DNA from: a virus
Reading direction: 5' to 3' (one strand)
DNA: 21,597 nucleotides
Virus record (IMG/VR): IMGVR_UViG_3300034356_000185
Span: 1 to 21,597 of that record
Part shown: positions 851-21,597 of the stretch, piece by piece
Position numbering within the stretch: position 1 is the stretch's first letter
Layout: each line of letters opens with the position of its first letter
The notes under the pieces: model-generated
What the model was told of the DNA's origin: nothing
Seen by the model: the letters and a program-made list of their open reading frames with translations, nothing else
Database searches by the model: none
Program-made: the position numbers and the translations under genes

Positions 851-1140
851 TGAAAGATATCAAAGAAATAAAGCTAAGAATTATTGCTGCAGGCTATAAG
901 GCCGTTGATGAATTAATCAAGGTTGCTGAAGAGACCGTAGTAAAAAGTAAGGATGAGGAAGGTGAGCTTGCTGCTGACAGATTAAAGAATGCAGCTGCCA
1001 CCAAAAAGTTAGCTATATTCGATGCCTTTGAGATTCTAAACAGAATAGAATCAGAGAAGGAGAACTTAGATTCAATTGACAAAGGCATAAGTAGAACAGA
1101 TACCAAACAAGGGTTTGCAGAGCGAAGGTCAAAACAATAG
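850..1140 (+). CDS. Small helical protein, candidate small terminase subunit
   Basis: I chose the ATG at 850, which overlaps the preceding TGA (848-850) as TGATG; a GTG at 847 is in frame but less likely. The 96-residue product is charged and almost wholly helical, with amphipathic stretches around residues 3-30 and 40-70 (motifs ADRLKNAAA, AIFDAFEILNRI) and a polar C-terminal tail GFAERRSKQ. There is no obvious helix-turn-helix. Its size and its place directly before, and overlapping, the large terminase are what is expected of a small terminase subunit, which recognises phage DNA and feeds it to the motor, but that is inferred from position. The overlap with the next gene is 26 bases if the TTG at 1115 is the start there. 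Confidence 0.6.
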   Translation: MKDIKEIKLRIIAAGYKAVDELIKVAEETVVKSKDEEGELAADRLKNAAATKKLAIFDAFEILNRIESEKENLDSIDKGISRTDTKQGFAERRSKQ

Positions 1141-3364
1141 TCTGTGTAGGGTAGTAAAGGATTACATTCCTCCTGCAGTTATCTCTAACAAGAATAGAGT
1201 GATGTCTTGGCTGTACGGGTATAATGAGCAGTACGATGTCATTGTAATATCTAAGAGCGGCAAGATAGGACAGGTAGTAGAGATATCAGGATTGAAAATT
1301 GCTCTTCCGCCTACACCTGATAAATGTTTTGAAAGACACGCATCTAAATCTGAGCAGCACTGGGAGAGAGATGAATTGCCAAGAGAATTATTTAGGATTC
1401 AGTCTATATTTCAATGGAATGAAAAACCCAAGGAGTTCAAAGACCAGTGGGTAGATTACATTGAGCAGGAGTTTGACCGCAGAGAGCAAGGATTTTGGTA
1501 TATGAACAATGGAGTAAAAACCTACATCACAGGCTCCCATTATATGTATCTACAGTGGTCTAGTATTGACATTGGATACCCCGACTTCCGTGAAGCCAAT
1601 CGAATCTATTGGATATTCTGGGAAGCGTGCAGAGCAGACAATAGAAGTTTTGGCATGATATACCTAAAGATTAGACGTTCAGGATTCTCTTTTATGTCAT
1701 CATCTGAATGCGTGAACATAGGTACTCTTGCCCGGGACGCACGTATAGGCATCTTGTCAAAGACAGGTGCTGATGCAAAGAAGATGTTTACTGACAAGGT
1801 GGTTCCAATCAATAGCCGTCTACCGTTTTTCTTTAAGCCCATCATGGATGGCATGGATAAGCCAAAGACTGAGTTGGCATACAGAGTTCCGGCAGCAAAG
1901 ATTACTAAAAAGAATATGTACGAGACTGACGATACTGATGTCGATGGACTTGATACATCAATAGACTGGAAGAACACTGAAGACAACTCTTATGATGGCG
2001 AGAAGCTATTATTCTTGGCTCATGACGAATCTGCAAAATGGACCAAGCCTGTAAACATCAAAGAGAATTGGCGTGTAACCAAAACCTGTCTACGATTAGG
2101 TAGTAAGATTATTGGCAAGTGCATGATGGGCTCAACGTCCAATGCGCTTTCAAAAGGTGGACAGAACTATAAAGACATTTACGAAGACTCAAACGTAAAA
2201 TACAGGAACGCTAACGGTCAAACTAAGAGCGGGCTCTATGCCCTGTTTATCCCTATGGAGTGGAACATGGAAGGCTTCATTGACATCTATGGTCACCCTG
2301 TATTTAAGAAGCCCACAGCCCCTATAAAAGGCGTTGACGGCAATCTAATTAAGAACGGTGCAATAGACTATTGGGACGCTGAGGTTGATTCATTAAAGAG
2401 TGATGCAGATGCATTGAATGAATTCTATCGTCAGTTTCCACGCACAGAGTCGCACGCATTTAGAGACGAGAGTAAGTCATCCATATTTAACCTGACCAAG
2501 ATATATCAGCAGATTGATTACAATGACTCAATGATTAAGGAGCACTATATTACTAGAGGGTCTTTCTCATGGAAGGATGGGATTAAGGATACTCAGGTGA
2601 TTTGGACTCCCGACCAAAGAGGTAGATTTACTATGAGCTGGGCACCACCTAAACACATGCAAAACAATGTTCATGTACGTAATGGAATTAACTACCCCGG
2701 AAATGAACATCTTGGGTCATTTGGATGTGATTCATACGATATATCTGCTGTGGTTGGCGGACGTGGTTCTAACGGAGCGCTACATGGAATGACTAAGTTT
2801 CACATGGACGATGCCCCTGTAAATGAGTTTTTTCTAGAGTACATTGCAAGACCGCAAACTGCTGAGATATTTTTCGAAGAAGTGCTGATGGCCTGTGTGT
2901 TTTATGGGATGCCTATCTTGGTAGAAAACAATAAGCCAAGATTATTGTATCACTTAAAAAACAGGGGCTACAGAGGTTTTTCTATTAACAGACCGGACAA
3001 ACAGTTTGCTAAACTGACAAAAACTGAACGAGAGTTAGGCGGAATACCCAACTCATCTGAAGATGTCAAGCAATCACACGCATCAGCTATTGAGTCTTAC
3101 ATTGAGAAATTCGTAGGCTTAGACTCAGAGGGCAAGTACAGGGAGTCAGACTTGATGGGCACGATGCCATTCACCAGAACACTTGAGGATTGGGCTAAGT
3201 TTGACATAAATGATAGAACTAAATTTGATGCTTGTATTAGCTCAGGGCTGGCTATCATGGCAAATCAAAAACACCTCTACATTCCTGAAAAAAAAGAATC
3301 GAAATTAATTATTAACTTCGCTAAATATAAGAACGAAGGGGTAACAAGTCAATTGGACAAATGA
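1115..3364 (+). CDS. terL: Terminase large subunit (DNA-packaging ATPase/nuclease)
   Basis: This is the DNA-packaging motor. Residue numbers assume the TTG at 1115. The ATPase domain has a non-standard Walker A, K185-I-R-R-S-G-F-S192, where the usual lysine of GKT/S is replaced by the basic pair before SG, as in many phage terminases. Walker B is LLFLAH-D304-E305, the glutamate being catalytic. The RNase H-like nuclease domain follows: D539 in GCDSYD, E604 in ILVENNK and D705 in KFDACIS are the likely metal ligands. Other landmarks are YITGSHYMYLQW and GYPDFREANRI before the P-loop. At 749 residues it is large for TerL but close to that of crAss-like and similar Bacteroidota phages. The start is uncertain: TTG 1115 overlaps the previous gene, ATG 1202 would remove 29 residues. 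The stop overlaps the portal start (ATGA), so the two are coupled. Confidence 0.93.
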   Translation: MQSEGQNNSLCRVVKDYIPPAVISNKNRVMSWLYGYNEQYDVIVISKSGKIGQVVEISGLKIALPPTPDKCFERHASKSEQHWERDELPRELFRIQSIFQWNEKPKEFKDQWVDYIEQEFDRREQGFWYMNNGVKTYITGSHYMYLQWSSIDIGYPDFREANRIYWIFWEACRADNRSFGMIYLKIRRSGFSFMSSSECVNIGTLARDARIGILSKTGADAKKMFTDKVVPINSRLPFFFKPIMDGMDKPKTELAYRVPAAKITKKNMYETDDTDVDGLDTSIDWKNTEDNSYDGEKLLFLAHDESAKWTKPVNIKENWRVTKTCLRLGSKIIGKCMMGSTSNALSKGGQNYKDIYEDSNVKYRNANGQTKSGLYALFIPMEWNMEGFIDIYGHPVFKKPTAPIKGVDGNLIKNGAIDYWDAEVDSLKSDADALNEFYRQFPRTESHAFRDESKSSIFNLTKIYQQIDYNDSMIKEHYITRGSFSWKDGIKDTQVIWTPDQRGRFTMSWAPPKHMQNNVHVRNGINYPGNEHLGSFGCDSYDISAVVGGRGSNGALHGMTKFHMDDAPVNEFFLEYIARPQTAEIFFEEVLMACVFYGMPILVENNKPRLLYHLKNRGYRGFSINRPDKQFAKLTKTERELGGIPNSSEDVKQSHASAIESYIEKFVGLDSEGKYRESDLMGTMPFTRTLEDWAKFDINDRTKFDACISSGLAIMANQKHLYIPEKKESKLIINFAKYKNEGVTSQLDK

Positions 3365-9269: not shown

Positions 9270-10208
9270 ATGATAAACTCTGTTAGAAATACGGTACTAT
9301 CCGTTTTGAACAAGAACAACTACGGCTACATCTCCCCTTCAGATTTTAATTTGTTTGCTCTAAATGCGCAAATGGAAATATTTGAAGGATATTTTGATGC
9401 CTATAATAAGGTAATAAATACTGAAAACTCTAGAATGGCAGGCACCGACTACGCTGATTTGGAGCAACCTATGTCAGAAACAATGGAGGGTTTTCTAAGA
9501 ACAGATTATCTTACTAAGATTACAGCCAACAAGTTCTCATCACCAACTCCTACTACTACAGGATATTACCCTTACTACATATTAGACGTACAGTGCAAGC
9601 CAGTTATTCTTGCGACAGGAACTAACACGTCTGTGTCTGCAGGTAACTTAGTCAACAGTGCAGGAGCATTCTTATCAAAGGGTATAGTACCGGGAGATGT
9701 TGTCACCAACCTTACGACAGGATTGGTTAGCACTGTAGTTTTAGTATCCAGCAATACCACCATACAATTAGAATCGAACATATTCTTGGCGTCTGCTAAT
9801 TCATACACTATAATTTCTTCAGCTACAATTGTTCAAGCTGAAAAAGTTAATGTTGGAAAGATTGCACTTTTAAATAATTCTAATCTTACAGCCCCAACAA
9901 TTCAATTTCCTGCTTATACGTTGCAAGGAGAAGTAATTACATTGTATCCTTCTTCTATTCAAAACAAAGGACAAGTTGAGTGTACTTACTTCAGATTCCC
10001 TGAGCCACCAAAATGGACATATATTACTTTGACAAATGGAGAGCCTGTATTTGACCAATCACAAGGTGACTATCAGGACTTTGAGTTGCCACTTGAGGAT
10101 GAGTATAAGTTGATTTCAAGAATACTTCAATACTGTGGAGTTTCAATTAGAGAGTCAGAGGTTACTCAATTCAGTATGGCTAAAGAACAACAGGAGCAGA
10201 ATCCATAA
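9270..10208 (+). CDS. Neck/ring structural protein
   Basis: This 312-residue protein probably forms one of the rings joining portal and tail barrel. The N-terminus is a helical domain with INSVRNTVLSVLNKNNYGY, ISPSDFNLFALNAQMEIFE and YFDAYNKVIN, a pattern I associate with short-tailed Bacteroidota phages and crAss-like relatives. A beta-rich domain at about residues 116-187 (IVPGDVVTNLTTG, VVLVSSNTTIQL, SANSYTII) looks inserted into the body. The body resumes after it, with QGEVITLYPSSIQNKGQVEC and YFRFPEPPKW, and the C-terminus is helical. It is the first gene after the full promoter and is 10 bases from the next ring-like protein. Exact ring identity is not resolvable. Structural role is likely from position; the family assignment is from memory of sequence patterns. 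Confidence 0.7.
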   Translation: MINSVRNTVLSVLNKNNYGYISPSDFNLFALNAQMEIFEGYFDAYNKVINTENSRMAGTDYADLEQPMSETMEGFLRTDYLTKITANKFSSPTPTTTGYYPYYILDVQCKPVILATGTNTSVSAGNLVNSAGAFLSKGIVPGDVVTNLTTGLVSTVVLVSSNTTIQLESNIFLASANSYTIISSATIVQAEKVNVGKIALLNNSNLTAPTIQFPAYTLQGEVITLYPSSIQNKGQVECTYFRFPEPPKWTYITLTNGEPVFDQSQGDYQDFELPLEDEYKLISRILQYCGVSIRESEVTQFSMAKEQQEQNP

Positions 10209-10218
10209 AAAATAACAC

Positions 10219-11142
10219 ATGGCATACTTATCACAATACCAATACTACGAGAACGAAGGAGCGGCACCTGAGGATGCCAATTGGGGCTCGTATCAATATA
10301 TCAGTCTTCAGGACGTTGTCAACAACTTCTTGTTGATGTACTCAGGCAATCACTCATTGGTAAACAATGAGGAGCGGTATAAGATATTGTTTCATGCAAA
10401 GAGAGCTGTTCAAGAGCTTAACTACGATGCATTCAAAGAAATAAAAGTTCTTCAGCTTACCGTTCCAGACAACTTGATATTTATATTACCATCTGACTAT
10501 GTCAACTGGGTTAGGGTTTCTATGTATAAGGATGGATGGTTAAGGCCATTGACTGAGAATATTCAGACGTTATCATCTAGAGCATATCTTCAAGACAATA
10601 CAGGTCGTATTTTATTTGACGAGGATGGAAATGCTTTGAGCCCTCAATACTCTAATATTGATTTTGATAGATTAAGCAAAATTAAGAAGAGCATTTATTT
10701 GAATCAAGCGAATCAGTTTGATGGCAATGAAGGGTTTAACTACGATGGAATGTGGTACTTTGAGGGAAACATTGGTGCGGCTTATGGTCTTAACACGGAG
10801 ACGGCAAACTTTAATCCTACCTTTAATATTGACAGGAAAGCAGGAGTAATTAATTTTGATTCTCCAATGGCAGGAGAGTCTTGCATTGTTGAGTATGTGT
10901 CAGACGGTATGGAGCAAGGAGATAATTCTAAGATTACCGTTAATAAGTTATTTGAAAAGTACATTTATGCTTACATTCAGTGTGAGATTTTAAGTAGCAA
11001 GTTGGGGGTTCAGGAATATATTGTTACCCGTGCTCGTAAAGAAAGGACTGCGTTATTGAGAAATGCTAAGATAAGAATCAGCAATATCCATCCCGGAAGA
11101 CTATTGATGAACATGAGAGGTCTAGACAAGATTATTAAATAA
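10219..11142 (+). CDS. Tail adaptor (P22 gp4-like/tail tubular) ring protein
   Basis: The 307-residue product has the arrangement of head-to-tail adaptor proteins: an N-terminal helical bundle (SLQDVVNNFLLMYSG, RYKILFHAKRAVQELNYDAF), then a beta-rich middle beginning with the typical turn LQLTVPDNLIFILPSDYVNW and VRVSMYKDGWLRPL, and a C-terminal helix pair (KLFEKYIYAYIQCEIL, RARKERTALLRNAKIRI). In P22 gp4 and T7 gp11 these proteins bind below the portal and carry the tail. An IDGNEG-like loop region (residues 165-200) may be an insertion. It lies directly before the giant barrel protein, with a single base between stop and next ATG, so the two are probably translationally coupled. Confidence in the adaptor role is good, in the exact family moderate. 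Confidence 0.75.
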   Translation: MAYLSQYQYYENEGAAPEDANWGSYQYISLQDVVNNFLLMYSGNHSLVNNEERYKILFHAKRAVQELNYDAFKEIKVLQLTVPDNLIFILPSDYVNWVRVSMYKDGWLRPLTENIQTLSSRAYLQDNTGRILFDEDGNALSPQYSNIDFDRLSKIKKSIYLNQANQFDGNEGFNYDGMWYFEGNIGAAYGLNTETANFNPTFNIDRKAGVINFDSPMAGESCIVEYVSDGMEQGDNSKITVNKLFEKYIYAYIQCEILSSKLGVQEYIVTRARKERTALLRNAKIRISNIHPGRLLMNMRGLDKIIK

Positions 11143-11143
11143 T

Positions 11144-14100
11144 ATGGCAAAGATTACCAGAAACTTCGTAACGGGAAGGATGAATAAAGTCTATGACGAA
11201 AGAGTCATTCCTGATGGAGAATACATTGATGCTATGAACATCAGAATGGGTTCTACAGAAGAATCTGAGATTGGTGTTATTGAGAATACAAAGGGGAATT
11301 TACCATTGACTTCTCTAACTTATATTGACGGGACTCCTCTTAGTAATTCTGCAAGATGTATAGGGGCTATTGAGAATAGTGTTACCGAAACCATTTATTG
11401 GTTTGTACATGATTCTAACTTTCCAGTTGGGGCCACAGGTAAGCTAGACCTAATTGTTTCTTTTAATGTCAGCACAAATATTTTGACATACCATGTCATC
11501 TCTATTAATGATGGGGGTGGTGTCAATACCATTTTGAATTTTAATCCAAGCTACCTTATTACAGGGGTAGATATTTTGGATAATAAACTGCTGTTCTTTA
11601 CGGACGACTACAATGCTCCAAGGACAATAAATGTTCAAAGAAACTATCCTAATCCAGTTGCTAACATAGACCAAGTTAGTGCTGAGTCTTTGCTGGTAAT
11701 AAAGAAGCCACCTTTAGAGGCACCTGCAGTTCAACCAATAGTAAACAATGGTCAAGAGAATTTCTTAGAGACACGATTCATTTGCTTCGCTTATAGATAC
11801 AGATACATTGATGGAGAGTATAGTGCTACTTCTCAATGGTCTCAGCCTGCATTCATACCTAAGAATTTTAGTTTTAGTGTTGACAGTTATTTGAATGAGG
11901 GCATGACTAATCTATGCAATTCAGCAGTCATCACTTATAATACAGGAAGCTCTTTAGTTACTGGAATTGACTTATTGTTTAAGAGGTCTGATGGGAATAT
12001 TATTAAAGTAATTGAGAAGCTTGATAAACAAAACTTAGGATTGGTTGACAATGTCTTAGAGCCATACACATTTACAAACAGTAAAATCTTTACCATTCTT
12101 TCTGAGTCAGAGCTATTGAGGCTGTACGATAATGTGCCTAGATTTGCAAAGGCTCAGACTATTATGGGCAACAGATTGATGTATGGCAACTACGTGGAGG
12201 GATATGACTTAGTAGACCAAAACGGTGTGCCAATAATGTTTGAGTACTTTACGTCATTAGTATCTGAGGATATTGGCTTAACAGATACAGACACTAGCGT
12301 TGAGGCAGGGAATTACTCTATTGATGGAGCTGAAAATATTCCTGACTCAATAGTCAATATTGATTTAGTGGATAAAGTATTGATTGCAGGTTCAGCAATA
12401 AGTTTGGATTTGACTATAGACCACGCCCAATTCACTGGAGACTCTCCATTTCCAACTGAAACTACAGAAAACATAAGATTAAATTTTGTTTTCTTTTTAC
12501 CTAGAGATTTTACTTCGGTCTATGATTTGGGGTCTAGTGCAGAGTTTCAGGAGGCCATAGGGACCGATGGGAATATTCAGCCTCTTGCAACCTTTTGCGA
12601 TGGAGTTACACTTACAGACCAATTCAACTGTGATTTACCAAACACTTTGAGTGGGTTGTTTAAAACAGCTAGTGGAATTAGTGCGGCTGGTCAAGCTATT
12701 GGGATATTAACATCTCCTGCTAGCAGTGAGATTGGCCTTCAGATTCCGGCAATGAAATATGTTAACAATATTGCAACTCCAACTCAGACAGTATACGAAT
12801 ACTATAGCATCACATTTGCTAACGCATCTTTCCAAGAAATAGCAAATACTCAAAGCCTTCATAGTAATAGAGACTACGAGATTGGTATTGTCTATATGGA
12901 TGATTTTAACAGGGCATCAACAGCTTTAGTTAGTCCAAACAATACTGAGCATGTAGCTTGTGGATTGTCTTCTTTCAAGAACTCTATTCAAGTCACAATA
13001 CCTTCTCAACAGGCTCCTCCTGCTTGGGCTACTAGATACAAGTTTGTCATCAAGCCTGACCAAGAGAATTATGAGGTGATTTATTGCAACATATTCTTTG
13101 AAGACCCAAATAGTAATAATGCTTACTTCTTATTGGAAGGAGAGAACTCTAGAAAGGTAGAGGTTGGTGATAGATTTATTGTGAAGGCAGACTCAGAAGG
13201 ACCTACTACAAGTTGTGTTTATGCCACTGTTCTTGAGAAGTCTTCTCAGGCTGAAGGTTTTCTTGAGATACCGAGTGAAAATGACTCTACGATTTTTGTA
13301 TCTGTTCCTGCTGGAGTATATGCTAAGATTAATCCGAACAGCTTTAATGTTATTCAAGATGAGAATGCAGTTATTGCTCCGGGAACTATAACAATAAAGG
13401 AGAAGCAAGGAGGAGACTATCCTATTCTATTCTACCCTATGAATATACCGGGGGATGATGTTGATAATCCTAGCTATTTATCCACTTGGGAATTTATAGA
13501 CTACAATGTTCCTGCAGGAAGTAGAATTGTAATGTCAATAAAACAATTCAGAGGAGGAGAGGGAAATAAATGTGAGGAAAGAAGAAATACTTTTGAACAA
13601 ACCTTCATATCTCCAAACGTATACAACAATATGTATGATTGGTTTGTAGGCGAAAACATTGAACAGTATTTAAATGATGGAATAAAAATTGTGGGGGGCG
13701 CTGGTTGCCCTATTCAAAATGATTTTATTCCGGGAATTTCAGCTTCGCCAACTATTACTACAGCTCTTTGCACAAACTACTATCAGTTCTATAGAGACGC
13801 TGTCACTAATGAGCTTCAGTTAATGGTGACAGGAACCGAGGCTTGTAGTTTTGGGCTGAAACCTAGAGCAAGAGATTCAAACGTATCGGTAAACATTACT
13901 GTATTCCGTTCTGATAAAGTTATAATCTTTGAAACCGAACCATCTGAGTCTTTGCCTGATGTATTCTTTGAGAACGAGATGTCATTCGCTATTGTGAATG
14001 GAAACCATCAAGGAAATATTCAGAACCAAAACATTGCTACGGGTACTCCTGCAATAGTTGACACTAAGTTCTTTAACTGCTTTGCATTTGGAAACGGTGC

Positions 14101-15583
14101 TGAGAGTTATAAGATTAGAGACTCATTGGTTGGCAACTTCTTTAACTTTGGCAACAGAGTGACTAGTGTTTCTGCTCAGGACTACAAAGCCGCAGATAGA
14201 TTTGCAGATATTACCTATAGTGGTGTCTATAGCGCAGAGTCAAACGTAAACAAGCTCAACGAGTTTAACCTTGGCTTGCTTAACTATAAAGTATTGGAGC
14301 CATCATTCGGAGACATCTACGTAATGGATGGTAGGAATACTGATGTGTTAGTGCTTCAAGAAGATAAGATTTCATACGTCCTTGCAAGTAAGAACTTGAT
14401 TTCAGACTCTACAGGTGGTGGTGTAATATCTTCTGTACCTGAAATATTAGGAACTCAGATTGCAAGAACTGAAAGATATGGAATTAGCTTTAATCCTGAG
14501 AGCTATGTGCAGTGGGGATTCAATAGATTCTTTACTGACATAAAGAGAGGTGCTGTAATTCAGCTTGTAGGAGACTCATCTAGCAATGACCAGCTTGCAG
14601 TTATCTCTGAACTAGGAATGAGAACATGGTTTAGAGACGAGTTTAATAGGTCATACGCTACTCAGAAGCTAGGTGGGTTTGACCCATACATGAACGAGTA
14701 CGTGTTATCTACAAACGATATAGACCTTCCATCAAATCCTCAGTGCTTGGCTTGTGGGGTATCACAAACTTTTACTCTTAGCACATTACCATCTGTATCA
14801 AATAGCTTTGAATACTGCGTAGATTTAGGTGCTGTTATTGGAACCTCTGATATTAATTACACAGTTGAAACAATTAGTGCTGGTGCATCATTTGAAATTA
14901 CTGTGGTCTACGATGGAACCACTTATGCCACCGGAGTTGAGACCACTAGTGGAACGCTGACATTTACTAAAGATAATATTTCTGTTGAAACAGCTACAAT
15001 AACAATAGATTATACTGGAGATATAGTTCTTTCAGTACTGGCTGAATGTACAATTACTACTAACTTGACAATTGTCCAAGTGGTTGTGACAAATGACTTC
15101 CAATCAGGAGAGACTATTCAGACGCAGTACAGATATGTTAATGGAACTTATACTTCTCCATTGCAGTCTGTTGGTACTACGTTCTTATCTTCTAACGATA
15201 ATCCATTGGTGTCAAGATATAGCTCTTTGACAGGAGCTGTGGGTCCCGGAGCTTTCCCTCCTGCAGGAAGTACACTGAGTATTATTACTAACAAGTTGTC
15301 TACAGACACGTTTGTATTCAATCCTGCTACAGACAAGTTTAGATATTTGATGTCAAATACATTGTACACCAACACATCTGCAAACATATCTACTTTGCTA
15401 GGACTGTCTACTATAGCGACACCAAACCAAGGAGGTGGAATTAATAACTTTGCGAATTTTACTGTCCCTGCTTTAGATGATTACCTATATCTTATTTGGG
15501 ATTTTAGAGATTCTGTGCCTTTGACATTGTGTTATTCTAGTACAACTACACTAGATGCTTGCTGTGGATGTCCAGTAGTTTAA
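11144..15583 (+). CDS. Giant tail-barrel ('muzzle'/stabilisation) protein
   Basis: At 1479 residues this is the largest complete gene. The N-terminus has the hallmark motif F8..G11.MN13-14..DER18-20.IP..GEY25-27..A.N32 and then IGVIENTKGN, seen in the tail-stabilisation proteins of crAss-like and other Bacteroidota short-tailed phages. Further landmarks in order are YRYRYIDGEYSATSQWS (near 217), LLFKRSDG (near 277), LYDNVPRFAKAQTIMGNRLM (near 326), IVYMDDFNRASTA (near 582), WATRYKF (near 628), and RGAVIQLVGDSS followed by GMRTWFRDEF (near 1135-1167). In crAss001 the equivalent forms the barrel at the tail tip. Residues about 1201-1302 form an extra beta-sandwich not needed for the barrel, starting CLACG. 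The C-terminus is Cys-rich (DACCGC). Cys and Asn/Thr-rich beta segments suggest rigid, exposed structure. I infer a tail-barrel role; the precise homology cannot be checked here. Confidence 0.88.
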   Translation: MAKITRNFVTGRMNKVYDERVIPDGEYIDAMNIRMGSTEESEIGVIENTKGNLPLTSLTYIDGTPLSNSARCIGAIENSVTETIYWFVHDSNFPVGATGKLDLIVSFNVSTNILTYHVISINDGGGVNTILNFNPSYLITGVDILDNKLLFFTDDYNAPRTINVQRNYPNPVANIDQVSAESLLVIKKPPLEAPAVQPIVNNGQENFLETRFICFAYRYRYIDGEYSATSQWSQPAFIPKNFSFSVDSYLNEGMTNLCNSAVITYNTGSSLVTGIDLLFKRSDGNIIKVIEKLDKQNLGLVDNVLEPYTFTNSKIFTILSESELLRLYDNVPRFAKAQTIMGNRLMYGNYVEGYDLVDQNGVPIMFEYFTSLVSEDIGLTDTDTSVEAGNYSIDGAENIPDSIVNIDLVDKVLIAGSAISLDLTIDHAQFTGDSPFPTETTENIRLNFVFFLPRDFTSVYDLGSSAEFQEAIGTDGNIQPLATFCDGVTLTDQFNCDLPNTLSGLFKTASGISAAGQAIGILTSPASSEIGLQIPAMKYVNNIATPTQTVYEYYSITFANASFQEIANTQSLHSNRDYEIGIVYMDDFNRASTALVSPNNTEHVACGLSSFKNSIQVTIPSQQAPPAWATRYKFVIKPDQENYEVIYCNIFFEDPNSNNAYFLLEGENSRKVEVGDRFIVKADSEGPTTSCVYATVLEKSSQAEGFLEIPSENDSTIFVSVPAGVYAKINPNSFNVIQDENAVIAPGTITIKEKQGGDYPILFYPMNIPGDDVDNPSYLSTWEFIDYNVPAGSRIVMSIKQFRGGEGNKCEERRNTFEQTFISPNVYNNMYDWFVGENIEQYLNDGIKIVGGAGCPIQNDFIPGISASPTITTALCTNYYQFYRDAVTNELQLMVTGTEACSFGLKPRARDSNVSVNITVFRSDKVIIFETEPSESLPDVFFENEMSFAIVNGNHQGNIQNQNIATGTPAIVDTKFFNCFAFGNGAESYKIRDSLVGNFFNFGNRVTSVSAQDYKAADRFADITYSGVYSAESNVNKLNEFNLGLLNYKVLEPSFGDIYVMDGRNTDVLVLQEDKISYVLASKNLISDSTGGGVISSVPEILGTQIARTERYGISFNPESYVQWGFNRFFTDIKRGAVIQLVGDSSSNDQLAVISELGMRTWFRDEFNRSYATQKLGGFDPYMNEYVLSTNDIDLPSNPQCLACGVSQTFTLSTLPSVSNSFEYCVDLGAVIGTSDINYTVETISAGASFEITVVYDGTTYATGVETTSGTLTFTKDNISVETATITIDYTGDIVLSVLAECTITTNLTIVQVVVTNDFQSGETIQTQYRYVNGTYTSPLQSVGTTFLSSNDNPLVSRYSSLTGAVGPGAFPPAGSTLSIITNKLSTDTFVFNPATDKFRYLMSNTLYTNTSANISTLLGLSTIATPNQGGGINNFANFTVPALDDYLYLIWDFRDSVPLTLCYSSTTTLDACCGCPVV
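14744..15049 (+). other. Extra beta-sandwich domain at the end of the barrel protein
   Basis: Residues about 1201-1302 run from CLACG through FEYCVDLG, SFEITVVYDGTTYATG and ITIDYTGDIVLSVLAEC. The strand pattern is that of an immunoglobulin-like sandwich. It resembles the second domain of the next protein, as reported among the findings. It is probably exposed at the distal end of the tail. Confidence 0.45.
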
Positions 15584-15601
15584 AATAAAAAATAAAATAT
15601 A

Positions 15602-16819
15602 ATGGCTACAAGTTCAACATATTATTTAAATGGTCCATCACTAGGTTCGGCTACGGCTGTGTTTACAAACGCAGCTTTAACGGTATGTGCCGCCAATGGT
15701 TTCTACTCGGACGGTGTAATAGTCAGAGAACAAGTGTCATGTGTACTTCTTCCTCAGCAAACCTGTACTTCTTGTTCAGTAGCTTGTGGAGAAGCAATAA
15801 GTCTTAGTGGGAATGAAGGCGTATACTATTTAAATGTAAATCTTGGCAGCTCAACTGGAGCTGTAATTATTGAGTTTAATCCTTTTGGTATTCCAGATGG
15901 AGTTATTGCTTTATTTGATAGCGTTACTTATAATGGCCTTTCTTCACCTTCATTTGGGTGGCTTCAAGGCACGGCAGGATTACCTACTTATATTGGGTCA
16001 TCATCTGCTGGTTGTAGCAGTGGGTTAGTAGCAGGCTCTCCTTATACGCTTGATGAGTTCCAATATAATGGGACAATATTTGCTCCGCTAGGGACTACAG
16101 AGAGCGTATCTATAGCTGCAGGTCAACTTGAACTTACTGCATCAGGTCCGGGGAATTGCATTATGGTAATACCAAAAACTGCAGCGTCTCCATCTACTTT
16201 AAATCTTACGTTTATAGGACCATGCTCAGGTACAGCATTTACTATGTCAGTAGCTTGTCCTGCTGCACTTACGTCATTCTCATCAAGCACAGTTAATGTT
16301 GATAGCTCAACGGCTTGTTCAGCTACTATAAATCAAACGTACTACGTGGCTCACGTTAATGGAGCAGGCGGTACTTTAGGTTTGTATGACTTGGTTTTTA
16401 GTGATGTTAATGGGCAGTTTAAACTTGGTGTAGGCTACTATCAGACTAATGATGCAGGTACCAATGAGTGGTTTCAAGTAGATGCCAACGGGGTTATCAT
16501 TGCTTTTGGTGATTGCTTGTATAGTCAATTCATAGTATATTTTGATGTGACTACAAGCCCTAATACTTACGGATGGGGAAGTTCTGTAGCTGCTTGTGCA
16601 GGAACAGGAACTCCTTTAACGGTTTACATTACTGGCACTGCTACCGACTTATTCAATGCAGTAGTAACTCAAGGCAAATCACTTTATACAAACGCAGGGC
16701 TTACTATTCTTTTGAACGGAAACAATACGTGGTATAAAACTGTTTCTGCTCCTGCTAGTGGAGAAACTTTACAGGTAGGAATATTAGGAGATACATCAAC
16801 ATGGGGAGGACCTTGTTAA
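15602..16819 (+). CDS. Cys-rich modular beta protein, candidate tail appendage or receptor-binding protein
   Basis: This 405-residue protein is nearly all beta strand, rich in Ser/Thr/Ala/Gly and in cysteine (pairs such as CTSCSVAC at 55-62). It has no catalytic motif. The pattern is modular: three copies of an LYTNA-like unit at residues 19-47, 264-305 and 359-405, each ending in cysteine, and a beta-sandwich domain at about 58-209 (YYLNVNLGSSTG, IPDGVIALFDSVTYNG) that looks like the extra domain at the end of the barrel protein. Its place, directly after the barrel gene, and the surface-exposed beta composition suggest a tail appendage or a receptor-binding protein, but a head decoration is also possible. 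I do not recognise a family. It starts at an ATG preceded by an A-rich leader, and the next gene follows after three bases. Confidence 0.6.
   Translation: MATSSTYYLNGPSLGSATAVFTNAALTVCAANGFYSDGVIVREQVSCVLLPQQTCTSCSVACGEAISLSGNEGVYYLNVNLGSSTGAVIIEFNPFGIPDGVIALFDSVTYNGLSSPSFGWLQGTAGLPTYIGSSSAGCSSGLVAGSPYTLDEFQYNGTIFAPLGTTESVSIAAGQLELTASGPGNCIMVIPKTAASPSTLNLTFIGPCSGTAFTMSVACPAALTSFSSSTVNVDSSTACSATINQTYYVAHVNGAGGTLGLYDLVFSDVNGQFKLGVGYYQTNDAGTNEWFQVDANGVIIAFGDCLYSQFIVYFDVTTSPNTYGWGSSVAACAGTGTPLTVYITGTATDLFNAVVTQGKSLYTNAGLTILLNGNNTWYKTVSAPASGETLQVGILGDTSTWGGPC
15656..15742 (+). repeat. Module A (first LYTNA-like repeat)
   Basis: Encodes residues 19-47, beginning AVFTNAALT and containing GFYSDG, with a final cysteine at 47. 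It is the first of three related units in this protein. The units are diverged at the DNA level, so only the protein pattern shows the repetition. Confidence 0.45.
16391..16516 (+). repeat. Module B (second LYTNA-like repeat)
   Basis: Encodes residues 264-305, beginning LVFSDVNGQFKL and containing GVGYYQTNDAG, with cysteine at 305. It is the longest of the three units and has an insertion relative to the others. Confidence 0.4.
16676..16816 (+). repeat. Module C (third LYTNA-like repeat)
   Basis: Encodes residues 359-405, beginning SLYTNAGLT and containing NGNNTWYKT, ending in the C-terminal cysteine 405. The last residue of the protein is therefore the terminal cysteine of the module. Confidence 0.45.
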
Positions 16820-16822
16820 ACT

Positions 16823-17599
16823 ATGGCAAATTACACACTAACATACAGCGAAGCGACACCCGGATGGGTGTCCTTCTATTCTTATTATCCTGATTGGATG
16901 ATAGGAATGAATAATTATTTCTACACTTTCAAAGGTGGAGACTTGTATAGACACAATGTGAATGAGACCAGAAATAACTTCTATGGTACTCAGTCTACAT
17001 CTACATTACAAAGCGTATTCAATGTATCACCGCTAGAGAATAAGTTATTTAAAACCATAGCACTAAAGGGAGACTCTCCTTGGGCAGTAACTTTACAAAC
17101 TGACATACAAGTATCAGGATTTATTAGCGCCAATTTTTTTGAGAAAAAGGAGGGGACTTTCTTTGCTTTTGTTAGAAACGATACCGTTGGTCAGCTAAAT
17201 CTAAGAAGTGTAAATGGCATAGGAAGAAGCTCACAAGTTGTTGGTGGTAATGTTATCAAGTTTCCATTAACCATTTCTATTGGTAGCATCATAAGTATTG
17301 GAGACTTATTTTATTTCCTACTGGCCCCTAACTTTACAGGAGACCCATTACTTGGAGGACAGGTGACGGCAATTACAGTTGACCTACCAAATGGAGTGAA
17401 CCAAATAACTATCAATACAACGATATCTGGGACCACTCCTATTGCTGTGCAGGATGCGTATTTTCTTTACATTAAAAACTCAATTGCTGAGTCTCATGGT
17501 GTGCTAGGACATTACTGCGTATTTGACTTAGAGAATACTGAGACAGAAAAGATTGAGCTATTCACTATCGAGTCTGACGTAATGAAAAGTTTCCCTTAA
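16823..17599 (+). CDS. Structural protein of the barrel/tail region
   Basis: This 258-residue protein has a pattern I recognise from Bacteroidota phage virion gene clusters: YTLTYSEATPGWVSFYSYYP at the start, then MIGMNNYFYTFKGGDLYRHN, SVFNVSPLENKLFKTIAL, and FFEKKEGTFFAFVRN near residue 110. The C-terminal half is beta-rich with Ile/Val/Thr strands (FPLTISIGSIISIGD, VNQITINTTISG). There is no enzymatic motif. It sits between the Cys-rich protein (three-base gap) and the GNAT gene, and is probably a minor virion protein of the tail or its exterior. The function is not known; the family memory is from sequence pattern, and the precise role is inferred from position. Confidence 0.65.
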   Translation: MANYTLTYSEATPGWVSFYSYYPDWMIGMNNYFYTFKGGDLYRHNVNETRNNFYGTQSTSTLQSVFNVSPLENKLFKTIALKGDSPWAVTLQTDIQVSGFISANFFEKKEGTFFAFVRNDTVGQLNLRSVNGIGRSSQVVGGNVIKFPLTISIGSIISIGDLFYFLLAPNFTGDPLLGGQVTAITVDLPNGVNQITINTTISGTTPIAVQDAYFLYIKNSIAESHGVLGHYCVFDLENTETEKIELFTIESDVMKSFP

Positions 17600-17620: not shown

Positions 17621-18031
17621 ATGGCACTAACAATACGAGAGTTAAGCGAAGCAGATTACGAAGACATTCTTGTAGGGTGGTGGAAGGACTGGAAATGGAT
17701 TCCTCCTCAAAGGGACTTCCTTCCTGACAATGGTAAAGGTGGCATCATAGTTTATGACGGTGATGTCCCTATTTGTGCAGGATTTATGTACCTTACTAAC
17801 TCTAAGGTTGGATGGGTAGACTGGATAATATCAAATAGGTATTATACCAACAAAGAACTAAGGAAAGACGCCATAGAATTATTGGTGTTTAAATTGACTG
17901 AAATCTGTGCATTAGTTGGGTGTAAGTACGTATACGCACTAATTAAAAATGAAAGTTTAATAAATACTTATGTGGGTCTTGGCTATATCAAAGGAGACTC
18001 ATACACAAGTGAAATGATAAAGGTCTTATAA
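17621..18031 (+). CDS. GNAT-family N-acetyltransferase-like protein
   Basis: The 136-residue product is the size of a single GNAT domain and follows its strand order: MALTIRELSEADYEDI (first strand and helix), PICAGFMYLTNSKVGWVDWIIS (central strands), then a helix NKELRKDAIELLVFKL, the strand CKYVYALIKN and the closing INTYVGLGYIKGD. GNATs transfer the acetyl group of acetyl-CoA to amines. The usual CoA pyrophosphate loop R/Q-x-x-G-x-G/A is not intact: the corresponding position reads N77-K-E-L-R-K-D-A, without glycines, so cofactor binding may be atypical. The N-terminal segment GWWKDWKWIPPQRDFLPDNG is unusual and Trp-rich. It lies among virion genes but is not obviously structural; it could modify a virion or host component. 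Fold call moderately secure, substrate unknown. Confidence 0.7.
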   Translation: MALTIRELSEADYEDILVGWWKDWKWIPPQRDFLPDNGKGGIIVYDGDVPICAGFMYLTNSKVGWVDWIISNRYYTNKELRKDAIELLVFKLTEICALVGCKYVYALIKNESLINTYVGLGYIKGDSYTSEMIKVL

Positions 18032-20667: not shown

Positions 20668-21597
20668 ATGGACGAGCAGGTAATAGACGACTTATACAAC
20701 AGAGCTGTATCTAAGGGGTACAAAAAAAGCCGACAAGAGTTTATTGGGCTATTACACTCTGATGGTGATGTAATGAATGATATGTATTCTTACGTACAAT
20801 CAAGTGGCTACAAGAAGGGTATAGATGACTTTAAAAATTTAGTTGGGGCCACTACTCAAGAGTCTACTATATTAAAAAAAAAAGAAGATACTACGGAATC
20901 ACCTTCGGAAGCTGGTTCTTTGGCTTTGTCCGAATCAGCTGACCCAGAGGCATTACGTTTTGGCAAGTTAGTATCAAAGATAAATCAACCTGAGGCCAAG
21001 AGAGTAGACGAAGAGGGATATATAGACCCTCGCTCTATGCTTGGTATGTATCCAACGAAAGAGCAGGCTGACAAGGCTACTACTCAAGCCATGGTCGACA
21101 TAGATGCTACTAAAGGAGAGCGTAAGCAACCTGCAAAAGGGGGTGGTCAAGGATATGTAGAAAATCTATTTACCAATCTTGGATTAGGTGCTGCTTACTT
21201 TAATGAAGGAATTGCGTCCATACCTGAGACAGCAATTAACCTACTTGCTATACCACAAAACTATGTTGCAGAAAAGACAGGGTGGGATATTGGTGTAACT
21301 GCAGAAGGAATAAAAAAATCTTGGGGGATTACAAATCCTTTATTGGATTACGTACAGGAAGACAAAAAAATATTAAGCGGTGAAGTATCCAAGTTTATAG
21401 CGGATAGATATGAGGACCCTAGCGTTGTAGGTAATTTTCAAAAAGGAAACTACAAAGATGGGTTTGAATTACTTGGCTCAGCTATAGCTCAATCAGTACC
21501 TACTAGCATTGGTCTTATGGCTGGCGGTGCCAAGATGACACCTGCTCAATTAGCAGCACTTAGTACGATTGTATTTACTGAGGGGCAAAGGCAAGAG
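20668..21597 (+). CDS. Start of a probably very large internal virion protein (3' end outside window)
   Basis: The ATG at 20668 opens a frame that runs 310 codons to the window end without a stop. The N-terminus holds two copies of a short helical motif with the core G-Y-K-K, 30 residues apart (residues 8-29 and 38-59). A low-complexity linker follows (about 60-95). Residues 165-310 contain alternating hydrophobic helices, e.g. NLGLGAAYFNEGIAS and SAIAQSVPTSIGLMAGGAKM, that could be membrane-active. N-terminal motifs of this kind occur on large ejected proteins of Bacteroidota phages; in crAss-like phages the neighbouring large genes include virion RNA polymerase and other cargo. The visible part has no polymerase or lysozyme motif, so function is open. 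Confidence 0.65.
   Translation, partial: MDEQVIDDLYNRAVSKGYKKSRQEFIGLLHSDGDVMNDMYSYVQSSGYKKGIDDFKNLVGATTQESTILKKKEDTTESPSEAGSLALSESADPEALRFGKLVSKINQPEAKRVDEEGYIDPRSMLGMYPTKEQADKATTQAMVDIDATKGERKQPAKGGGQGYVENLFTNLGLGAAYFNEGIASIPETAINLLAIPQNYVAEKTGWDIGVTAEGIKKSWGITNPLLDYVQEDKKILSGEVSKFIADRYEDPSVVGNFQKGNYKDGFELLGSAIAQSVPTSIGLMAGGAKMTPAQLAALSTIVFTEGQRQE
20689..20844 (+). repeat. Tandem 30-residue motif (two copies) in the last protein
   Basis: Residues 8-29 and 38-59 share D-x-Y...V-x-S-x-G-Y-K-K....-F..L, with G17-Y18-K19-K20 and F25 in the first copy matching G47-Y48-K49-K50 and F55 in the second, exactly 30 residues apart. The DNA of the copies is diverged. It is likely a small helical-hairpin unit used for packaging or contact with another virion protein. 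Confidence 0.55.

Follow-up and report, generated by a model that had tools for sequence, protein, structure and literature searches.

Two related beta-sandwich modules at the chain break of a split crass-type phage muzzle

Why do two neighbouring genes in a phage tail locus encode beta-sandwich modules that look alike? The question is raised by the plus-strand gene run of the virus record IMGVR_UViG_3300034356_000185 (the window, which is the whole 21.6-kb stretch analysed here), where module A lies in the protein P0001 and module B in the adjacent P0002. A sequence-only reading had held that both modules carry the same landmarks in the same order and that the two genes had apparently exchanged a surface module. 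In this study, we confirmed that A and B are homologous, related beta-sandwiches. The overall explanation that we favour, with somewhat better than even confidence, is a muzzle (the gate at the tail tip) of three chains in which beta modules would have been inserted at one loop of the core, with B on the separate P0002 chain. The parts of the locus on which the argument turns are the following.

11144-15583, plus strand: P0001, muzzle protein, 1479 amino acids (aa) (PF25731, phrog_14478)
11144-14713, plus strand: P0001 core, residues 1-1190; its profile ends at the point where unsplit muzzles enter their C-terminal domain
14714-15052, plus strand: module A, P0001 residues 1191-1303, a predicted eight-stranded jelly-roll sandwich (hidden Markov model, HMM; AlphaFold strands; VIA-align)
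15047-15571, plus strand: module Cx, P0001 residues 1302-1476 (HMM, AlphaFold model)
15602-16819, plus strand: P0002, 405 aa, modular (N-B-M2-M3), between the two muzzle genes (HMMs, AlphaFold)
15602-15778, plus strand: N module, P0002 residues 1-59 (HMM)
15773-16249, plus strand: module B, P0002 residues 58-216 (profiles, AlphaFold model)
15932-16156, plus strand: extra loop region of B, about residues 111-185 (alignments, model strands)
16250-16516, plus strand: M2 module, P0002 residues 217-305 (HMM)
16514-16816, plus strand: M3 module, P0002 residues 305-405 (HMM)
16823-17599, plus strand: P0003, detached muzzle C-terminal domain, 258 aa (PF25729, phrog_38031)

All eight of the quoted landmark strings occur in P0001 and P0002 at the places given for them. 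In A they are CLACG at residue 1201 (nucleotide 14744), FEYCVDLG at 1222, SFEITVVYDGTTYATG at 1249 and LSVLAEC at 1296; in B they are CSVACGEAI at 58 (nucleotide 15773), VYYLNVNLG at 74, IPDGVIALFDSVTYNG at 97 and LNLTFIGPC at 200. Three of the four landmarks are equivalent between the modules, but the last is one strand off: in the joint sequence alignment LNLTFIGPC pairs with the A strand TATITIDYT, and the counterpart of LSVLAEC in B is FTMSVAC (213-219), aligned to residue 216 with its last three residues added by extension. Better ends for the modules are residues 1191-1303 of P0001 for A and 58-216/219 of P0002 for B. B has the fold of A plus about 65 extra residues in one loop, a region almost missing from A and reduced in gp13 of the Flavobacterium psychrophilum phage Fpv5.

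The homology becomes visible at the level of profiles. Two-sequence BLASTP of A against P0002 gave nothing significant (E 1.9 and 2.3), and the second of these alignments has the correct register. Relatives were taken from viral contigs, whose loci we number with the prefix L (11 loci for P0002 and 80 of at least 598 P0001-like muzzle stretches), and both proteins were divided into modules by HMM before profile-profile comparison with hhalign. Distant relatives of B were added from the muzzle tail of the Cellulophaga phage phi18:3, from Fpv5 gp13 and its kin, from 22 further loci (five of them contigs already in the set) and from one Flavobacterium genome contig; thinning at 85% identity left 57 of 89 stretches for B and 63 of 102 rows for A. 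The hhalign value for A against B was 42.8% with the first alignments, 53.3% with 54 versus 38 sequences (aligned from the cysteines to Y-x-x-G), 89.9% against the wide B family of 57 rows, and 95.6% (E 1.2e-8) against the 19 distant B members alone. This last alignment runs from the initial CG to the second-last strand, covering columns 12-99 of 109 in A and 1-135 of 142 in B with a large gap in A, and extends over most of both modules. Its score of 51.5 compares with at most 17.9 for 200 column permutations and 19.1 for the reversed profile, and five control modules (Cx, N, M2, M3 and the muzzle C-terminal domain) reached no more than 5.1% against A, or 8.3% with the first alignments. Among 92 windows along the muzzle, the scoring ones overlap A with a single exception, starting at 1366, which we read as probably running into the B copy of phi18:3-type muzzles. 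The A HMM also finds B copies, weakly and in register, with independent E values (i-E) of 4.3e-4 in L091, 1.5e-3 in L063 and 4e-3 in L104. Within P0002, N and M2 are profile kin (98.7%), as are M3 and M2 (91.6%).

Public families add little by sequence. Pfam returned no family for B at E up to 10, and for A returned Big_3_5 and four others, all under the cut-off; N, M2 and M3 had none above cut-off, and neither A nor B matched the Pfam profile of the PPC/collagen-binding-type family. In the PDB, phmmer with P0001 found no solved chain at E up to 1, and the two weak matches of the B profile and three of the A-Cx profile (best E 0.85) were taken for chance.

The predicted structures were compared through AlphaFold models of P0001 1185-1479 (52-row alignment; predicted local distance difference test score, pLDDT, 88.6) and of P0002 (51 rows, pLDDT 88.8). 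A has strands at 1207-13, 1219-27, 1233-44, 1249-56, 1259-62, 1270-76, 1283-91 and 1293-1300; B has strands at 65-69, 73-80, 86-94, 99-105 and 108-110/112-115 before the extra loop and at 186-192, 199-206 and 212-217 after it. Seven of the eight A strands pair with a B strand in the joint sequence alignment, strand 5 partly. The two models align with largely the same PDB entries (38 of the 50 listed for the A model are also among the 50 listed for the P0002 model), and these alignments place both on one kind of fold. A superposes on the ColG collagen-binding domain 1nqj (VIA-align Z 11.1, 94 residues, 2.5 A) and belongs by that measure to the PPC/collagen-binding-type jelly rolls; B reaches Z 8.0 over 91 residues at 2.5 A, borderline by the tool's own yardstick. 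The corresponding values for the GOLD domain of TMED1 (7rrm) are 10.3 and 7.9. A Foldseek search of the PDB with the whole of P0002 gave nothing below E 0.001. In the explanation that we favour, A and B are probably anciently related jelly-roll sandwiches of the PPC/GOLD type. In a viral structure library, the A-Cx model has as its fourth match (E 9.6e-7) a protein of 588 residues from Flavobacterium phage tant8-1; by sequence, this phage also encodes a B-type module, in this or another protein.

What, then, is the protein that carries A? P0001 matches the Pfam family crAss_MUZ (PF25731) with 36.6 bits (cut-off 27) over residues 6-238 of 1479 alone (profile positions 4-211 of 1224), and phrog_14478 with E 1.9e-227 (best stretch 6-749). 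The companion family crAss_MUZ_C (PF25729) is absent from the P0001 chain and is carried by the separate P0003 (57.4 bits, cut-off 27, residues 49-119), which also matches phrog_38031 (E 2.3e-76) and the C-terminal part of phrog_14478 (1124-1377 of 1474, E 2.4e-8). A single PHROG thus covers P0001 with its front part and P0003 with its back part, and P0001 alone is a split muzzle-type protein because crAss_MUZ_C sits on P0003. These matches show a split muzzle, with its C-terminal domain, P0003, in a gene of its own. For P0002, whose gene lies between these two, neither Pfam (E up to 1) nor PHROG (E up to 0.01) gave a family.

Comparison with single-chain muzzles locates the break. The core ends and the C-terminal domain starts at residues 1072/1079 in phi38:1 gp97, 1148/1155 in Gundel_1 gp060 and 1216/1236 in elemoA gp25, leaving gaps of 6, 6 and 19 residues, and A is missing from all of them. 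The core profile of P0001 runs to 1190, and behind it come A, Cx, a stop, P0002, a stop and P0003, with an ACCGC linker motif closing the P0001 chain just behind Cx. Because the core ends at 1190, where unsplit muzzles have a short loop, A marks the start of an insertion at one loop, and this loop is replaced by A-Cx, P0002 and P0003. The arrangement recurs: 70 of 84 loci with a muzzle gene and a C-terminal domain gene, repeated contigs included, have a P0002-type gene at the break. The 14 loci without an N- or B-bearing gene between the two comprise 13 with B in the muzzle (again with repeated contigs) and L070, which has N in its muzzle tail.

A itself is a standing part of the split-type muzzle. 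We collected muzzle open reading frames (ORFs) of more than 1300 residues that were complete at the 3' end. Those truncated there by the end of a contig were removed, as were identical ORFs and the window's own (L004), which gave 83 distinct ones, five of which are second copies of contigs (L107-L110, L114). A is present in 82 of the 83, the exception being the Elemovirus muzzle. What follows Cx in these 82 varies: 50 have a plain end or unmodelled modules, 12 carry B (five of them second copies), 11 carry N, 5 carry Y and 4 carry X. B lies within the muzzle chain in the phi18:3 group, L098/L114, L105 and L106, and no separate N- or B-bearing gene was found in these loci. Its position is constant in the loci seen, after A-Cx and before the C-terminal domain gene; only the gene boundary varies. 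B-type modules also occur in other Flavobacterium phage proteins, namely Fpv5 gp13 and a protein of tant8-1.

Genes of the P0002 type are mosaics. Their architectures include N with nothing more recognised, N-B-M2, N-B-M2-M3, N-M3, N-M2-M3, N-Y, N-X, a doubled N-B-M2-B-M2, two genes in a row and a few rarer forms. In L054, L088, L090 and L093, an 81-residue N-only gene precedes a longer P0002-type gene. When P0002 architectures (13 states in 70 rows, counting absence as one) are mapped on a tree of muzzle cores, at least 24 changes are required, and the 5 muzzle-tail states in 78 rows require at least 10; these are raw minima without a shuffled-label baseline, with L107-L110 excluded, L114 kept and 8 of the 78 rows set to unknown for the P0002 state (P0002-type gene cut, or locus without a C-terminal gene). 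Three single loci also stand out. In L111 (2-5761), a 5'-open ORF of 1920 residues has four B-type modules plus the larger part of another, the final three lying near each other, and may encode a fibre-like protein of B repeats. In the muzzle tail of L105, two near-identical repeats (ATFDTNGG...YTFTGWSP...FVAQW) lie behind B, which we take to resemble Flg_new/InlB-type adhesion repeats. In L093 (8001-12167) the muzzle ORF ends after 1389 residues, whereas that of L088, whose core is identical in the tree, continues to 1490; the L093 muzzle is probably a broken or misassembled copy.

Modules are shared between muzzle and P0002-type genes, and modules turn over at the break. Module X, of 107 residues, ends the muzzle in L021, L022, L027 and L030 and the P0002-type protein in L027 and L030. 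The copy in the L027 muzzle is 93% identical in aa and 79% in nucleotides to that in the L030 P0002-type protein, and all muzzle/P0002-type pairs lie between 79 and 93% in aa. Within L027 and L030 they cluster according to position, with identities of 92% in aa and 87% in nucleotides between the muzzle copies and 94% and 92% between the P0002-type copies, and the transfer would therefore predate the separation of these two loci. Module Y is shared at 54-56% between the muzzle tails of L031, L036, L037, L039, L041 and L043 and the P0002-type proteins of L050, L053 and L058, and N and B are likewise common to both kinds of gene among the relatives. Of 51 muzzle tails longer than 15 residues, 46 resemble at least one protein of the N/B-bearing set with an E value no higher than 1e-5 and 5 resemble none, a count made on redundant rows with filters and composition correction off, in which some matches are cysteine linkers of 15-20 residues. 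The sharing of N may reflect one old event. Entry of N into muzzles by several independent transfers was considered and dropped: the free tree needs 3 changes, and a single clade of the 11 muzzle copies (L107-L110 excluded) is not rejected by the approximately unbiased test (p-AU 0.83). A muzzle with fused N and B in L106, suggested by a BLAST alignment, was also set aside, N being undetected there by the HMMs.

The proposal that adjacent genes exchange surface modules is supported in so far as X, Y, N and B are shared between the two kinds of gene in the relatives, but it is not supported for a swap of A and B between P0001 and P0002, which probably did not take place. A is in nearly every muzzle, and B follows A-Cx whichever gene carries it. 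Their likeness, which shows only at the profile level, would instead be older than the splitting of the muzzle.

These results can be joined in a model in which one loop of the muzzle core received a series of beta modules and the chain came to be split at that site. P0001 (core, A and Cx), P0002 (N-B-M2-M3) and P0003 (C-terminal domain) would together replace one protein of relatives. In phi18:3-type phages A and B lie in one muzzle chain, and in the lineage of the window B lies on the P0002 chain. P0003 would fold back onto P0001, P0002 would attach at the same outward-facing loop, and its exchangeable modules would contact the host envelope and leave the gate unchanged; A/B-type modules may bind receptors. 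We infer the assembly of the split pieces, the surface exposure, the host contact and the direction of change. More tentatively, the break may serve as a cassette site of a three-chain muzzle, at which the core loop tolerates a break in the chain, gene boundaries shift and surface modules are traded with a satellite subunit while the gate stays constant.

Several points weigh against this model or the homology beneath it. The link to the crAss001 muzzle structure is partial because the PF25731 match spans residues 6-238 and phmmer found no solved chain. That P0002 is in the virion and touches P0001 or P0003 we likewise infer. The A HMM weakly matches residues ~111-170 of many muzzles (best i-E 0.054), a stretch outside the 14 best of the 92 profile windows. 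The Z values of B are moderate (6-9), a range where a common arrangement suffices, and the A and B models were each compared with the PDB rather than superposed on one another. All counts are biased because loci were chosen by similarity to P0001, P0002 or B and the P0001 set is a part of those available. In a rooted tree of 26 rows, lineages with B in the muzzle branch off outside those with P0002 (support 84). B-in-muzzle would then be ancestral and the separate P0002 gene derived, but the rooting is weak and unsure because the Elemovirus outgroup, on a long branch, is placed among the other lineages. Finally, in the excerpts of PMC10172136 on muzzle length, the insertions that change it are placed in the crass and IG2 domains.

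Other accounts of the locus are less probable. P0002 could be a tail fibre, spike or cargo protein in its own right, whose gene happens to sit between muzzle genes; its tie to the muzzle is known from genes alone, and B occurs elsewhere, including in repeat form in the 1920-residue ORF. We regard this as unlikely, since other lineages carry N, B, X and Y on the muzzle chain itself and a P0002-type gene occupies the break in most loci. The direct swap of A and B between neighbours, the view of the earlier reading, gains something from the adjacency of the genes and from the transfer of X between such genes, and yet it is improbable: A is nearly universal in these muzzles, B is a family of its own with kin in other phages, and the A-B similarity is confined to profiles where copies of X remain 79-93% identical.

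Chance likeness of two very common jelly rolls, with convergent sequences, would accord with the null BLASTP result, with best PDB matches that share the fold but are otherwise unrelated (SIDT1, ColG, GOLD domains) and with the weak match of the A HMM to another muzzle stretch. It is highly improbable given a profile match at E 1.2e-8 across most of both modules, far above permutations, reversed profile and the five modules, and the in-register hits of the A HMM on B copies of several proteins. Readthrough of stop codons, fusing P0001, P0002 and P0003 into one long muzzle, is suggested by the common frame of the three ORFs in the window, with gaps of 18 and 3 bases, and by the shared frame of the P0002-type and C-terminal genes in somewhat over one third of loci (32 of 70). 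It is very unlikely indeed because the common frame is poorly conserved: all genes share it in 8 of 70 loci, the window included, and the muzzle and P0002-type genes in 21 of 70.

The window carries tail genes of what is probably a podovirus-like phage, and relatives among the phages of Flavobacterium and Cellulophaga suggest its host group. Some of the other genes were named from MW202828 (Podoviridae sp. isolate ctfjg026).

1115-3364, plus strand: terminase-like ORF, named by gene order against MW202828
3361-5796, plus strand: portal-like ORF, named by gene order against MW202828
6955-8373, plus strand: probable capsid protein (phrog_13704, 'virion structural protein')
9270-10208, plus strand: head/packaging protein (phrog_14543), which we take for a ring protein
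10219-11142, plus strand: head/packaging protein (phrog_13977), likewise taken for a ring protein

Downstream in the tail gene run, 17621-18031 encodes a 136-residue protein (phrog_17252); MW202828 has a counterpart that bears the annotation of an N-terminal acetyltransferase subunit. A long ORF starts at 20668 and is cut by the window end at 21597; the MW202828 gene at the same place, of ~11.6 kb, is annotated 'reticulocyte binding/rhoptry protein' and is probably a misnamed large virion protein.

A muzzle that consists of two or three chains and harbours a mosaic gene where it is broken would offer a defined site at which to study how host contact changes while the gate is untouched, and it would give meaning to P0003 and to P0002, which lacks a family in Pfam and PHROG. 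The reading is testable because split-muzzle isolates exist, namely the Cellulophaga baltica phages phi18:3, phi46:3, phi13:2 and phi19:3. Open-access papers, surveyed in part, include no title on a split crass-type muzzle or on an A/B module, which leaves its absence from print unproven.

Among known systems, the closest structural reference is the crAss001 muzzle gp44, to which P0001 and P0003 correspond through PF25731 (residues 6-238 only) and PF25729. In the excerpts of PMC10172136 that treat it, this muzzle sits as a hexamer at the tip of the tail, has a gated beta-propeller, is highly conserved among crassviruses and varies in length by insertions that can affect surface properties; its crass domain, at the tip, probably touches the cell, and the relevant part of a review takes a similar view (PMC10136315). 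Unlike the window, where the C-terminal domain has its own gene and A-Cx and P0002 lie at the break, gp44 is one protein of five domains (PMC10172136, same excerpts). The BACON tandem repeats of crAssphage tail proteins are comparable as repeated surface modules evolving by duplication, but they are another type of domain, and the parts of PMC10136315 on them make no tie to a break in a muzzle gene.

The phage phi18:3 (Pachyviridae, Baltivirus) has a split muzzle with A and Cx, as in the window; its chain runs A, Cx, a Big_9/cadherin-like domain and B in gp114, with the C-terminal domain in gp115, and the records of both proteins are noted 'experimental MS/MS proteomics'. It differs in having the Big_9-like domain and B fused to the muzzle and no separate N- or B-bearing gene that we could find. 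MW202828 has the same order of muzzle (50.6% identical), small P0002-type, C-terminal domain and acetyltransferase-like genes, but its P0002-type protein has 183 aa and only N is recognised in it. The ColG/ColH collagen-binding (PPC) and GOLD domains are among the best structural matches of A and B, a likeness of fold without a Pfam sequence match to such a family and without a sign of shared function. Phages whose tails gather Ig-like modules are known; what may be new beside them is a crass-type muzzle with a chain break at one of its loops and a mosaic gene placed there.

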